A stretch of 64,000 nt of DNA from Robiginitomaculum antarcticum DSM 21748. Lineage in GTDB: Bacteria > Pseudomonadota > Alphaproteobacteria > Caulobacterales > Maricaulaceae. Shown in pieces: positions 2,856 through 18,277 of this stretch (positions are counted from its first letter, which is position 1; each line of letters starts with the position of its first letter). The stretch spans positions 248,001 through 312,000 of the forward strand of contig NZ_KB823012.1 of assembly GCF_000365025.1 (NCBI RefSeq), in the 5' to 3' direction. The translations under genes were made by a program, and so were the position numbers. The notes beneath the pieces were generated by a model, which did not search any database, had not been told where the DNA came from, and worked only from the letters and a program-made list of their open reading frames with translations.

Positions 2856-4127
2856 ATGAAAACACTTTTATTGGGTGGCGGCGGACGCGAACATGCGCTG
2901 GCGTGGAAATTATCGCAGAGCGATCTGGTAAGCACGCTATACTGCGCGCCGGGTAATCCGGGCATTGCCGATGTCGCGACATGTATCGATATGGCGGTGG
3001 ATGATATCCCTGCCATACTCGCCTTTTGTAAAGACATAGACATTGAATTTGTTATCGTCGGGCCGGAGCAGCCCCTGTCCATCGGTATTACAGATGCTCT
3101 GACCGCGCGCGGCATTGCCGTCTTCGGCCCGACGCAGGACGCCGCGCAGCTTGAGAGCTCCAAAGCCTTTATGAAAGATTTCTGCGCGCGTCATAATATT
3201 CCGACGGCGCGCTATGGCGTATTTACCGACCCTGATAAAGCCAAAGCATTTCTCAGCACAATGGAGCCGCCTTACGTCTTGAAAACGGACGGCCTTGCGG
3301 CAGGGAAAGGCGTCACGATTGCGGAAACATTGGAACACGCCCATGCAGAACTGGACGCTTATCTTAGCGGTAAATTCGGCGCGGCCGGACAGCGGGTAAT
3401 TATCGAAGAGTTTATGTCCGGCGAAGAAGCGAGCTTTTTCGCGGTCTGTGACGGGGTGCGCGCCGTGCCGCTTATTGCAGCGCAGGATCACAAACGCGTC
3501 GGCGACGGCGACAGCGGTCCCAATACGGGCGGCATGGGCGCCTACGCTCCTGCGCCGGTTTTTACCGCAGATATTGAAAATCAGGTGATGGACAAAATCA
3601 TCGCCCCGACTATGGCGGGGATGGCTACGGACGGATATCCGTTTACAGGCGTCTTGTTTGCAGGGCTGATGATCACTGCGGGCGGGCCGAAACTGATTGA
3701 ATATAATATCCGCTTCGGTGACCCCGAATGCCAGGTCATCATGCGTATGATGCAGTCCGATTTAGGGCAGCTTCTCTACGCCGCCGCCACGGGTAAGCTG
3801 AACGCCGCGCCTGCGCCGCACTTCACGAACGCCCCGACGGTGAATGTCGTCATGTGCGCCAAAGGCTATCCGGGGCGCTATGATAAAGGCAGCATGATTA
3901 AAGGTCTGGACGCGGCCAACAGGCGAGAGGGCGTTATGGTGTTTCACGCCGGAACCCGCGCGGGCGAGGGCGGCTCGCTAGAGGCGTCCGGCGGCCGCGT
4001 GCTTAGCGTCACCGCTCAGGCCGAGACATTGGCCGAGGCAGTGCGCCGCGCTTACGCCGCGATTGACGAAGATATTGACTGGCCGGAAGGCTTTTGCCGT
4101 CGCGATATTGCCTGGCGGGCGCTCTAG
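2856..4127 (+). CDS. purD: Phosphoribosylamine--glycine ligase (GAR synthetase)
   Basis: Second step of de novo purine synthesis: 5-phosphoribosylamine + glycine + ATP to GAR. The protein of 423 residues starts MKTLLLGGGGREHALAWKL, the classic PurD N-terminus. The ATP-grasp domain carries LKTDGLAAGKGV and GPNTGGMGAYAPAP, and the metal-binding region reads LIEYNIRFGDPECQ. I chose ATG 2856 because a GTG six codons upstream (2838) would place residues before the invariant N-terminal strand. The gene stands alone with its own leader, 40 bp before a secreted amidohydrolase gene. Confidence 0.97.
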   Translation: MKTLLLGGGGREHALAWKLSQSDLVSTLYCAPGNPGIADVATCIDMAVDDIPAILAFCKDIDIEFVIVGPEQPLSIGITDALTARGIAVFGPTQDAAQLESSKAFMKDFCARHNIPTARYGVFTDPDKAKAFLSTMEPPYVLKTDGLAAGKGVTIAETLEHAHAELDAYLSGKFGAAGQRVIIEEFMSGEEASFFAVCDGVRAVPLIAAQDHKRVGDGDSGPNTGGMGAYAPAPVFTADIENQVMDKIIAPTMAGMATDGYPFTGVLFAGLMITAGGPKLIEYNIRFGDPECQVIMRMMQSDLGQLLYAAATGKLNAAPAPHFTNAPTVNVVMCAKGYPGRYDKGSMIKGLDAANRREGVMVFHAGTRAGEGGSLEASGGRVLSVTAQAETLAEAVRRAYAAIDEDIDWPEGFCRRDIAWRAL

Positions 4128-13044: not shown

Positions 13045-13938
13045 ATGACCACAATCGCATTTATCGGCCTGGGAAATATGGGCATGGGCATGGCGGTCAA
13101 CCTGGCCAAAGCCGGACATGAGGTGCGCGCCTTTGACATTAATGACGCGGCACGCGCCAGCGCAGCGCAGCAGGGCTGCGTAGACGCCGGCACGTTAAAA
13201 TCCGCTGTGGCTGACGCCGATATTGTTGTCACCATGCTGCCTGCGGGGCGGCATGTGTCTATGGTGTATGGCGATGAGGGCGGGATATTTTCCCATGCCA
13301 AAGCCGGCGCCTTATTTATCGACAGCTCGACAATCGACGTCACGACCGCGCGCAAAGTCATCAATGAAGCCACCCATTTAGGGTACCGTATGATCGACGC
13401 GCCGGTTTCGGGCGGCGTTGCGGGCGCGGCGGCGGGGACGCTGACCTTTATGTGCGGCGGAACGGATGAGGCCTATGCAGCTGCCAAAGCTTATCTCGAT
13501 ATTATGGGCAAAAATGTTTTCCATGCCGGCGCGGCAGGTAATGGACAAGTGGCAAAAATTGCCAATAATATGCTGCTGGGCATTCATATGATCGGCACAT
13601 GCGAGGCCTTTAATCTGGCTGAAAAACTGGGTTTGGACGCGCAGACATTTTACGATATTTCCAGCACGGCCAGCGGTCAAAACTGGTCCATGACCAGTTA
13701 TTGCCCGGCGCCCGGGCCGGTTCCGAGCGCGCCCTCAAACAAAGACTATAAGCCCGGTTTTGCGGCCGCGATGATGCTGAAAGATCTGCGGCTGGCCAAA
13801 GACGCTGCCGAGAGTGCTAACGCATCAACGCCTATGGGTCTTCGCGCGGCAGAGCTGTATGAGCTGATGGAAAAAGGCGGTCATGATGGCCTTGATTTTT
13901 CCGGCATAATGAAGCTGATAAAGGGTGAGCTTGGCTAG
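13045..13938 (+). CDS. mmsB: 3-hydroxyisobutyrate dehydrogenase
   Basis: NAD-dependent oxidation of 3-hydroxyisobutyrate to methylmalonate semialdehyde, the substrate of MmsA. A Rossmann motif GLGNMGMGMAVNLAKAGHEV opens the 297-residue protein; DAPVSGGVAGAAAGTLTFMCGG is the substrate-site signature, and the catalytic lysine is K171 in GQVAKIANNMLLG. Nine bases separate it from the acyl-CoA dehydrogenase stop, with AGGAG as ribosome site. The 3' end (13832-13938) is overlapped by the convergent glycosyltransferase frame; the ending GIMKLIKGELG is normal for MmsB. Confidence 0.96.
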   Translation: MTTIAFIGLGNMGMGMAVNLAKAGHEVRAFDINDAARASAAQQGCVDAGTLKSAVADADIVVTMLPAGRHVSMVYGDEGGIFSHAKAGALFIDSSTIDVTTARKVINEATHLGYRMIDAPVSGGVAGAAAGTLTFMCGGTDEAYAAAKAYLDIMGKNVFHAGAAGNGQVAKIANNMLLGIHMIGTCEAFNLAEKLGLDAQTFYDISSTASGQNWSMTSYCPAPGPVPSAPSNKDYKPGFAAAMMLKDLRLAKDAAESANASTPMGLRAAELYELMEKGGHDGLDFSGIMKLIKGELG

Positions 13939-15307
13939 TCACCGGCACATAAAGTTTGGCGTCGCCATGGCGGGTTTTATTCCAGTGAAACGGCGCCGTG
14001 ATCAGTTCTTTGGCCGCCTGAATAGCGGCTCTGAACATTAAAAACCAATAGAGCGGCATCGTTAAAAGCGATGGCAGCAGATGCCCTTGTCCCGCCCTCA
14101 CAGCCCCAACTGCGCTACAGGCAAATGCGCCGCTATATCCAAATATCAACGTGCCCCAGATAGAGGCATCAAACGCAGTTGGCTGCCCAAAAATTAGAGA
14201 CCAACCCGCATATACCAGCAAGCCGAATACAGCGGGAAAATGTAGAAACGCGGCGGTTAATGTCAGGCCGAGGGTGATTTGGAGTGTAAACAGGCGCCGC
14301 CATCCGCCTTTAAGGGGTCTACGCATATGCACGCCATAACTTTGCATAAATCCCTTTAGCCAGCGCGCCCGTTGGTTGCGCCAGTTTTTAAAATTGCTGA
14401 CGGCTTCTTCCTGCGTGCCGTATCCGATCATACCGATATCCCACCCAAAGGCCGCCAGACGAAACGAAAGATCGGCGTCTTCGGTGACATTATGCGGATC
14501 CCATAAACCGCTATCCTCCAGGGCGTCACGCCGCATGTGATTACTCGTCCCGCCCAGCGGAAACGGCAGGCCACACCGCGCGTAAAATGGGTTCATGGCC
14601 TGAAATAGAGCGGCATATTCAATCGAGAATTGCCGGGTCAGCCAGTTCTGACGGCTATTGTAATAGATTAGCGGGGCTTGCACGGCCGCTAAGTTTGAAT
14701 TTTGGGCAAGAGCCAGAGCGGCCTGCCGTAATTGCTGCGGATGGGGACGGTCTTCTGCGTCATAGATTGTGATAATTTCGCCGGTGGCGCGGCTCATCGC
14801 GACATTCATGGCCTTGGGTTTGGTGCGCGGCAAGCTTGGCAAGACGCTGACAATGTCAAATAACGTCGTCAGATGAGACTCTACAGCGGCTATTGTGCTG
14901 TGGTCATCCGCCTCGCAAATCATTAGGATTTGTAATTTATCGCGCGGATAATCCAGCGCGCTAAGACCGCACATTAAGCCTTGAACAACTTCTTTTTCGT
15001 GATGCAATGGAACGAGAACTGTATAATTTGGCCAGTGAAATCCGTCCGGTGCGACATGCATTCTGGGCAACGGCGCGAGGCACGCCATCCACCGTAAAAT
15101 GGCGGCGATCACGATAATGCCGGATGCAATTTGACAGGCTAATGTAATGACGGTGCGCGGCGAAAAAATAAACCCAAGGCAAATCAGCAGGCCGATGAGG
15201 GTTAAGGTAGCGCGTATTTTTAGCCCTAAACTGAATTGCGCGCACGACCAATCATGGCGCGCGCTCATGGCGCCATAAATTTGACTGCTATCCCCCCGGA
15301 CCCACAT
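13832..15307 (-). CDS. Family 2 processive-type glycosyltransferase, membrane-bound
   Basis: 491 residues. Two N-terminal membrane helices precede a cytosolic GT2 domain with the D,D,D,QxxRW landmarks of cellulose/hyaluronan/mannan synthases: YDAEDRP (182-188), TEDADL (275-280) and QRARW (312-316). At least three more helices follow. It therefore probably polymerises a beta-linked polysaccharide from a nucleotide sugar across the inner membrane. No partner synthase or export gene is adjacent. The last ~36 residues are read from DNA antisense to mmsB, which looks like read-through after loss of an ancestral stop. The start may be Met14 (15268) rather than 15307. Confidence 0.85.
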   Translation of the reverse strand: MWVRGDSSQIYGAMSARHDWSCAQFSLGLKIRATLTLIGLLICLGFIFSPRTVITLACQIASGIIVIAAILRWMACLAPLPRMHVAPDGFHWPNYTVLVPLHHEKEVVQGLMCGLSALDYPRDKLQILMICEADDHSTIAAVESHLTTLFDIVSVLPSLPRTKPKAMNVAMSRATGEIITIYDAEDRPHPQQLRQAALALAQNSNLAAVQAPLIYYNSRQNWLTRQFSIEYAALFQAMNPFYARCGLPFPLGGTSNHMRRDALEDSGLWDPHNVTEDADLSFRLAAFGWDIGMIGYGTQEEAVSNFKNWRNQRARWLKGFMQSYGVHMRRPLKGGWRRLFTLQITLGLTLTAAFLHFPAVFGLLVYAGWSLIFGQPTAFDASIWGTLIFGYSGAFACSAVGAVRAGQGHLLPSLLTMPLYWFLMFRAAIQAAKELITAPFHWNKTRHGDAKLYVPVTSQAHPLSASLCRKNQGHHDRLFPSAHTALPREDP

Positions 15308-15404: not shown

Positions 15405-15462
15405 CTTATTGACCTGCGCAGTCGGCGCGCCTAATCACCGCTTAAATTCAGCGTAGCCTGAG
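15405..15462 (+). repeat. 58-bp direct repeat, copy 1 (promoter-like)
   Basis: Matches 15975-16032 over 58 bp with only about seven mismatches, offset exactly 570 bp. Inside it, TTGACC (15409-15414) and TAATCA (15432-15437), 17 bp apart, resemble sigma-70 -35 and -10 boxes and are identical in both copies. The GGAG ribosome site and ATG of the second copy are not preserved here (GTAG; no ATG). It probably provides the promoter for the 59-aa gene. Confidence 0.65.
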
Positions 15463-15570
15463 AAAAGGCGCGGCGTGCAGCTAAGTCCTTAGGAGTGCTG
15501 CGTGAAATGGGCATTGTGATTGCAAAGCCAATGCATGTTTAAATATCCAATAGATTAGTAGACCAGAAAC

Positions 15571-15622
15571 GGTTAATCAGGCGGTCTGACGGGGCGCTAC
15601 TAACATCCCGCCAGACCTAACC
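15571..15622 (+). promoter_or_regulatory. Strong leader hairpin before the 59-aa gene
   Basis: GGTCTGACGGG (15583-15593) pairs with CCCGCCAGACC (15607-15617) over 11 positions with one A-C mismatch and a 13-nt loop. GGTTA (15571-15575) and TAACC (15618-15622) extend the helix past a 7-nt bulge. It ends 14 nt before AGGAGGT, so it could control translation of the small gene or act as an RNA in its own right. No known riboswitch was recognised. Confidence 0.5.
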
Positions 15623-15646
15623 AGCTAAACCTACTAGGAGGTCAAG

Positions 15647-15826
15647 ATGGCATCAATAGAGCCAATTTGGGACGCAGAAGCGGCCCTCTACAAATTCGAA
15701 TGTGCATTAGGCATACTCGAAAAAATATCAGACGGGCTGCCCGAAGATAAAACAACAACACACGCGCTTAATGGCTTACATAGCCTTATGAGCAATATTT
15801 ATGCCGAATTTACGGCAGAGATGTAA
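15647..15826 (+). CDS. Unknown 59-residue protein
   Basis: ATG GCA TCA... to TAA, 59 codons. Support: a near-consensus ribosome site AGGAGGT (15636-15642) four bases before the ATG, a structured leader, a promoter-like repeat upstream and a clear terminator just after the stop. The protein is acidic and helical in appearance, with one Cys and Trp near the N-terminus (PIWDAEAALYKFECALGILEK), a polar DGLPEDKTTTH turn, and a second helix (LNGLHSLMSNIYAEF). No signal peptide. I do not recognise the family; a two-helix hairpin such as a small regulator or antitoxin-like fold is speculation. Confidence 0.7.
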   Translation: MASIEPIWDAEAALYKFECALGILEKISDGLPEDKTTTHALNGLHSLMSNIYAEFTAEM

Positions 15827-15835
15827 TTAATAAGA

Positions 15836-15880
15836 AAGGCCGCAGCATGTAATTTATGAGGCGGCCTTATTTTATTTATA
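15836..15880 (+). terminator. Rho-independent terminator after the 59-aa gene
   Basis: AAGGCCGC (15836-15843) pairs perfectly with GCGGCCTT (15861-15868) over a 17-nt loop, and an AT-rich, T-containing tail follows. It lies 9 bp after the stop codon and separates the small gene from lysK. Confidence 0.7.
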
Positions 15881-15974
15881 TGAAGCATATCCGGGTCTAT
15901 CATTTCAAATTACTTGCAAATTAAATATGGCGTCGCCATAGGTGCAATCCCAAGGGGTGAGACGACTAATACGT

Positions 15975-16032
15975 CTTATTGACCTGCGAAGCCCGCGCGC
16001 CTAATCACCGCTTAAATCCAGCGGAGCCTGAT
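15975..16032 (+). repeat. 58-bp direct repeat, copy 2 = lysK promoter and ribosome site
   Basis: Second copy of the repeat at 15405-15462. TTGACC (15979-15984), a 17-bp spacer and TAATCA (16002-16007) form a plausible promoter, and GGAG (16023-16026) is the ribosome site for the lysyl-tRNA synthetase ATG at 16034. The predicted untranslated leader is only about 20 nt. Confidence 0.65.
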
Positions 16033-16033
16033 A

Positions 16034-17644
16034 ATGCCTTTTTCCTACGAGACCATGATGCGCAGTAAAGCCTGGCCATTTGAACAGGCGCGCGAAATTT
16101 TAAAGCGTCTGGATATTGAGAAAAAGCGCGGCATTGACCGCGGCGGCCGTCCGGTGATTTTCGAGACAGGATACGGCCCGTCCGGGCTCCCACATATTGG
16201 GACATTCGGTGAAGTGGCGCGCACGACGATGGTGCGCAAAGCCTTCATCGCGCTTTCAGAGGGCAAGATTGAAACGCGGATGATCTGCTTCTCTGATGAT
16301 ATGGACGGCTTTCGCAAAGTGCCGGATAATATGCCCAATGCGGATATGCTAGCGGAGCATTTAGGCAAGCCGCTGACAGATGTACCTGACCCGTTTGGTT
16401 GCCATGATAGTTATGCCGGACATAATAATAACATGCTGCGGCAGTTTCTTGACGGCTTTGGATTTGAATATGAATTTAAATCCGCCACAGAAGAATACCG
16501 CTCCGGCGTTTTTGACGAAGTTTTGTTAAAGGCCGCGCGCAATTACCAGAAAATTATGGACGTCATGCTGCCTTCATTAGGGCCGGAGCGTCAGGCGACT
16601 TATTCACCCTTTCTGCCCATATCGCCGAGTACTGGGCGCGTGCTCTATGTGCCAATGAAAACTGTCAACGCGCAAACCGGCGAGATTACATTTGACGACG
16701 AGGACGGCTCTGAGATCACTATGTCTGTCACCGGCGGCAATGTAAAAATGCAGTGGAAGCCGGATTTCGGCATGCGCTGGGCGGCGCTGGGCGTTGATTT
16801 TGAAATGTTCGGTAAAGATCATCAGGCTAATGCCGGATTATATTCTAAAATTTGTAAAATTCTCGGCGCGCAGCCCCCCGTACAATATGTTTACGAGCTG
16901 TTTCTCGACGATAAAGGCGAAAAAATATCCAAGTCAAAGGGTAATGGAATCGCCGTTGAAGACTGGCTTAAATACGCTATGCCGGAGTCCCTTGCGCTGT
17001 ATATGTTTAGCAAGCCGCGCACGGCCAAGCGCCTATTTTTTGATGTGATTCCCAAAGCTACGGATGAGTATTTTCAGCACCTCTCCGCCTATCCGGGACA
17101 GGATGAAAAGCAAAAGGCGGGTAATCCCGTCTGGTTTATTCACAATGAAAAACCGCCGCAGGACATCCCGCCGATCAGCTTTTCATTGCTGCTGAATTTG
17201 GTCAGCGCGGCAAATGCGTCCTCCAAAGATATTCTCTGGGGGTTTATCGAGCAATATGTGCCGGGCGCGTCGCCTGAAAGCTCGCCTGCTTTGGATGATC
17301 TATGTGAATATGCGGTGCGTTATTACGCTGATTTTGTGAAACCCGCGAAGAATTACCGCGCGCCAAGCGATATGGAACGTGCGGCTATGCTCGATTTAAA
17401 AGCCAGATTGCTGTCCCTCGGTGAGAATGAGCGCGACGCGGAAACACTTCAAACCGAAGTGTTTAGCGCAGGCAAGGCGGCGGACTATGATAATCTTCGC
17501 GACTGGTTTAAAGCGCTGTACGAAGTGCTGTTTGGCGAAGAGCAGGGTCCGCGGTTCGGCTCATTCGTAGCCATTTACGGTGTCAAAGCGACTGCGGATC
17601 TGATCGACCGCGCTCTGGCCGGCGAGCTGGTCAGCAATATTTGA
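16034..17644 (+). CDS. lysK: Lysyl-tRNA synthetase, class I
   Basis: Charges tRNA-Lys. This is the class I (Rossmann) form found in Archaea and many Alphaproteobacteria, not the usual class II LysS. 536 residues with the HIGH-like motif [13 protein letters not shown] near residue 52 and the KMSKS-like [12 protein letters not shown] near 298; both are intact. FCSDD-type [11 protein letters not shown] and the C-terminal helical anticodon-binding region are as expected. The gene stands alone; its stop abuts the stop of the convergent S24 regulator with no spacer. Confidence 0.96.
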
Positions 17645-18277
17645 TTACTGGCTGACCCATACAATACGGGCAATCCACAAGACCTCAATGCGGTCCAGCG
17701 TGCGGTCTTCATATTCCGGATTAAGCGAAATAAGTTCAATACGTTTTTCGGTCATGCGCCGCAACTCCTTGGCCATGACTTCTCCGCTAATCGTCTTGAC
17801 AACAACGCGGTCGCCGCGCCGGACATCCTCATTGGGCGCGATTAAAACGCGGTCGCCTTCGCGCAGGACGGGAGACATGCTGTTGCCGGAAATCTCCAGC
17901 GCGTAAGTATTTTCGTCGCGTACGCCGGGCATACGCACTTCGTCCCACCCGCCGCCAACGGGAAAGCCTGCATCGTCAAAGAAACCATCATTACCCGCTT
18001 GCGCCAGACCGATGAGCGGAACAGGCATGCCGCCAACGCGGCCTTTGCCGAGCGCGACCAGTGTTGCAAAATCTTCGAAATCCACATCCATAGCCTCAAG
18101 CACTTTGGACAGGGATTCTGTGCTGGGCCAGCGCGGCTTGCCGTCACCGGAATTACGTTTGGATTTATTAAAGGTCGTTGAGTCAAGTCCCGCGCGGCGC
18201 GCCATGGCGCTGGTGGAGATAGAAAACCGGTGCGCGAGAAGGTCTAAACCTCTCCAGATATCGCGGTGCTCAAACAT
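17645..18277 (-). CDS. HTH/S24-peptidase transcriptional regulator (LexA/CI-like)
   Basis: 210 residues. An N-terminal helix-turn-helix (ISTSAMARRAGLDSTTFNKSKR, residues 19-41) is followed by a linker and an S24 domain with the Ser-Lys dyad: Ser133 in GNSMSP and Lys170 in VMAKELRR. Known S24 regulators of this kind (LexA, phage CI, HdiR) repress genes and self-cleave on a damage or stress signal; here the cleavage site preceding the domain could be the AGN segment (about 94-96), an inference. A near-perfect palindrome 33 bp upstream (18310-18329) is a likely operator for self-regulation and for the divergent autotransporter. Confidence 0.88.
   Translation of the reverse strand: MFEHRDIWRGLDLLAHRFSISTSAMARRAGLDSTTFNKSKRNSGDGKPRWPSTESLSKVLEAMDVDFEDFATLVALGKGRVGGMPVPLIGLAQAGNDGFFDDAGFPVGGGWDEVRMPGVRDENTYALEISGNSMSPVLREGDRVLIAPNEDVRRGDRVVVKTISGEVMAKELRRMTEKRIELISLNPEYEDRTLDRIEVLWIARIVWVSQ

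Follow-up and report, generated by a model that had tools for sequence, protein, structure and literature searches.

A probable foreign small-gene insertion accompanied by duplication of the lysK promoter in Robiginitomaculum antarcticum

The intergenic region upstream of lysK in R. antarcticum was analysed within a stretch of 64,000 nucleotides (hereafter the window) and compared with the corresponding loci of related genomes. The best supported explanation for its organization is an insertion-duplication of about 570 bp in the lineage of the window, given that the congeners carry a single promoter copy, that the two copies found here are closest to each other, and that the segment between them is AT-rich. 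More precisely, we estimate with a probability of about 0.72 that foreign AT-rich DNA containing a small gene was inserted between a divergent glycosyltransferase gene and lysK, and that the event left behind a second copy of the lysK promoter, which the small gene probably uses. The features of the locus are collected in Table 1.

Table 1. Features of the glycosyltransferase-lysK region (positions in the window)
Feature	Position	Strand	Evidence
Glycosyltransferase (family 2 type), divergent left neighbour, marks the empty site of relatives	13832..15307	-	Weak matches to several glycosyltransferase models; same position in G001, G002 and G003
Repeat copy 1, duplicated lysK promoter, putative promoter of the small gene	15405..15464	+	54/60 identity to copy 2
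Lineage-specific insert, 510 bp	15465..15974		Absent from G002 and G003; base composition
Leader hairpin	15583..15617	+	Fold -19.2 kcal/mol, z -2.78
Ribosome-binding site AGGAGG	15636..15641	+	Sequence
Small gene, 59 residues, predicted helical hairpin	15647..15826	+	Homologues in G024, G448 and G452; protein-level conservation; model
Intrinsic terminator of the small gene	15836..15878	+	Fold -22.2 kcal/mol, z -5.19, T-rich tail
Repeat copy 2, original promoter of lysK with its ribosome site	15975..16034	+	Repeat match; comparison with relatives
lysK, class I lysine--tRNA ligase	16034..17644	+	NF001968, 847 bits

Two promoter copies in the window and one in its congeners

The two copies of the direct repeat lie 570 bp apart and differ at 6 of their 60 positions; the top match in 30 shuffles of the region was 33/60, against the 54/60 observed. 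Both carry TTGACC (15409-15414 in copy 1, 15979-15984 in copy 2), a 17-nt spacer and TAATCA (15432-15437 and 16002-16007), identical in the two, and all six differences fall outside these hexamers, which is not significant alone since the hexamers occupy 12 of the 60 positions (chance ~0.26). The original prediction had described two 58-bp sequences with about seven differences; its spacing and its identical boxes agree with the sequence, while the length and the number of differences had to be corrected. It had also taken the second copy for the promoter and ribosome site of lysK, which is borne out by the single promoter that precedes lysK in relatives. Copy 1 has kept the ancestral position relative to the glycosyltransferase gene, and copy 2 the one relative to lysK.

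In two genomes of the same genus, G002 and G003, whose lysK is 92% and 91% identical to that of the window, about 117 bp separate the glycosyltransferase gene from lysK (726 bp in the window), with the same downstream order, without the small gene, and with one promoter that reads TATTGACC...CCTAATCACCGCC...GGAGCCTAAAATG. The glycosyltransferase gene adjoins lysK in G001 as well, and G004 and G005 have a different left neighbour, in all three cases without the small gene; the small protein was not found in any of the five congener assemblies (67-93% complete). As a side observation, a LexA/S24-type peptidase-repressor gene (17645-18277, minus strand) lies tail to tail with lysK in the window, and a similar gene adjoins lysK in G003 (L016).

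The repeat copies match the promoter of the congeners at 36-40 of 58 positions and each other at 54 of 60, and the promoters of G002 and G003 agree at 49 of 59; lysK synonymous sites are near saturation between the window genome and G002 or G003. Given this difference in similarity, the duplication most likely happened after the split from the congeners. The main reading of the original prediction, in which a small-gene cassette was inserted and the lysK promoter duplicated, thus passes the comparison with relatives that it had proposed, and its interpretation as a whole is supported only in part. A single promoter would also be left by recombination between the repeats, so the two-repeat state with its gene might instead be ancestral to the genus and the unit lost from other lineages: direct repeats delete precisely to one copy, the congener genomes are few and incomplete, and homogenization of the repeats could make the copies look young. 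This alternative is improbable, considering that the copies are far closer mutually than to the promoter of the congeners, that the small gene was kept in no congener, and that the insert is AT-rich.

Composition and origin of the insert

The insert has a G+C content of 44% (54% for the window), which places it in the lowest 1.4% of the window's 510-nt stretches, and it holds a single open reading frame of at least 40 residues. A leader hairpin, a small gene with a ribosome site and a terminator had been predicted between the repeats, and folding, sequence and reading frame agree with all three. The AGGAGG is spaced 5 nt from the ATG at 15647, and the terminator consists of the hairpin proper (15836-15868) followed by its T-rich tail. 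The insert also contains a perfect, operator-like palindrome, TATGGC-GAC-GCCATA (15926-15940), just upstream of the native lysK promoter.

The insert was probably acquired by horizontal transfer, and searches of plasmid, phage and viral-contig records with the protein or the insert DNA gave chance matches only, so that the donor was not found. Foreign-looking DNA between direct repeats, with homologues of its gene near mobile genes, would also be expected if the repeats were attachment sites for an element that is integrated here or has decayed, as the original prediction had offered as a second possibility. The chances of site-specific integration appear slim, given that the 510 bp encode no recombinase, that neither the 60-mer nor the insert unit has a further copy in the 2.77-Mb genome, that no phage or plasmid matches, and that the repeat corresponds exactly to the lysK promoter and ribosome site.

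In the window gene, the 3' arm of the leader hairpin could alternatively pair with the ribosome site, and such pairing is predicted in G024 and G452 too, with modest z-scores. The leader may therefore gate translation of the small gene, which we regard as a lead only, given these modest scores and the fold of the whole leader, which does not exceed that of shuffles. It is scarcely credible that the small gene and its terminator form a regulatory leader of lysK through which transcripts from copy 1 read conditionally, as the shared strand, the terminator before lysK and the leader hairpin might suggest, since lysK retains a complete promoter downstream of the terminator, like the one in relatives, the small gene occurs elsewhere without lysK, and the predicted fold of the full leader is not more stable than that of shuffled sequences (z -0.7).

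A small protein family of four members

Homologues of the 59-residue protein were searched in 137 genomes of the bacterial family, 398 of the order and 385 of the class. Four members were recovered, namely the window protein and those of G024, G448 and G452, all from one family of Caulobacterales. The original prediction recognised no family for the protein and proposed a profile search; this holds for the libraries tested, as Pfam, NCBIfam, PHROGs and PADLOC yielded no family and scattered weak matches of single members only, and it does not hold in that three homologues exist. The protein family is tiny and undescribed, and no report on this gene or locus was found in the literature.

The last 50 residues are conserved (WDxE...FE...I.D.LP.D....ALNG) and the N-terminus is variable. 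Among the homologues, silent sites are saturated and 29-45% of replacement sites differ; because the replacement sites differ less than the saturated silent sites, the small gene is a real protein-coding gene under constraint. The protein is predicted to be a helical hairpin, with helices at residues 10-28 and 35-58 in an AlphaFold2 model built from two sequences (pLDDT 76), and, as expected for a two-helix hairpin, the fold search of the PDB with this model gave no match with E <=0.001. We infer that the protein is an accessory one, derived from mobile elements; a weak guess at its role would be that it forms a small dimer serving a mobile element as adaptor or regulator.

Apparently borrowed promoters in other genomes

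In both G448 and G452, the sequence preceding the small gene can be aligned with a promoter of G017, that of an accessory Y-family polymerase (scores of 54 and 49, with shuffle maxima of 24 and 28); in G017, the polymerase gene is divergent from a conjugative coupling-protein gene. TTGAC is part of the aligned promoters, as is a GTTC-N7-GTTC box that is perfect in G452 (L053:1290-1370) and has one mismatch in G448; in Alphaproteobacteria, such a direct repeat is the motif of LexA (PMC3323433). In G448 (L052:1263-1424), the first 39 codons of the polymerase and its LexA-type promoter stand directly upstream of the small gene and the polymerase is truncated, and a close full-length copy is absent from both G448 and G452. 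Matches to the promoter pattern at clpB-like genes in the genus of G448 were unrelated. Upstream of the window gene, no LexA box was found with one mismatch allowed, and the lysK promoter copy is present there instead; for G024, no promoter relative was found upstream of the small gene. Borrowed promoters thus appear to serve three of the four members, judging in G448 and G452 by promoter homology alone.

Besides these polymerase-type promoters in G448 and G452, a mobile origin is supported by the neighbours of other homologues, with the G024 gene flanked by an IS transposase on one side and a Pif1-like helicase on the other, and the G452 gene near a ParB-domain gene. In G024, an 18-nt inverted repeat (16/18 matching; L050:2079-2096 and 3107-3124) surrounds the small gene and a 66-residue open reading frame over 1046 bp, and resembles the ends of a small mobile element. 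It is possible, and we propose it only tentatively, that the small gene moves as a unit of its own and has repeatedly come to rest behind copied promoters of a host or plasmid (that of lysK here; that of the damage-inducible Y-family polymerase in two other genomes). If so, the four members would represent an accessory function of the mobile elements of this bacterial family, and the small gene could switch between damage-induced and constitutive expression.

Proposed course of the insertion and comparison with known systems

For the insertion-duplication, the following course is proposed. AT-rich DNA of foreign origin, with one small gene on it, would have been placed between the glycosyltransferase gene and lysK, and the 60 bp of the lysK promoter would have been present in two copies thereafter, either through template switching with a staggered 60-bp duplication or through a crossover in which the incoming DNA brought along a fragment of the lysK promoter; in the latter case, the 10% divergence of the repeats could predate the insertion. 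With its boxes and 17-nt spacer intact, copy 1 is the putative promoter of the small gene, probably transcribing it as a short mRNA of leader with hairpin, open reading frame and terminator, and copy 2, downstream of that terminator, would still transcribe lysK independently. With a terminator between the two copies, the essential lysK would therefore be undisturbed and the small gene would gain a housekeeping promoter.

The event is ordinary in kind and well resolved, an insertion with promoter duplication, and the tiny protein family is new. At this locus the states before and after can be compared, which illustrates how a small gene of foreign origin can settle beside an essential gene, bringing or making a copy of the neighbour's promoter and leaving the original one working. 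The locus also reveals a family of small proteins, so far undescribed, whose genes seem to stand behind borrowed promoters; LexA-type boxes are present in two of these.

Two known systems were compared. A covariance-model search, proposed for the hairpin in the original prediction, gave a weak match to RF00043, the antisense RNA region of plasmid R1162 (window 15582-15654, 27 bits, E 0.019); in both, a ribosome site and ATGGC come after a leader hairpin. RF00043 was rejected as a homologue, as the score is far below the gathering threshold of 55 and the reading frame that follows matches no known family; none of the other members matched RF00043 at the gathering threshold. The other system is promoter capture in the long-term evolution experiment with E. 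coli, in which a duplication of rnk-citG activates citT (PMC5918244). At lysK, two copies of the neighbour's promoter are present, one of them upstream of the acquired gene, and G002 and G003 retain the single-copy, gene-free state. As with rnk-citG and citT, the active promoter of a neighbour was copied upstream of a gene and the original arrangement was kept; there, however, a large native tandem segment was duplicated, whereas here the duplication comprises only 60 bp of promoter around a foreign insert.
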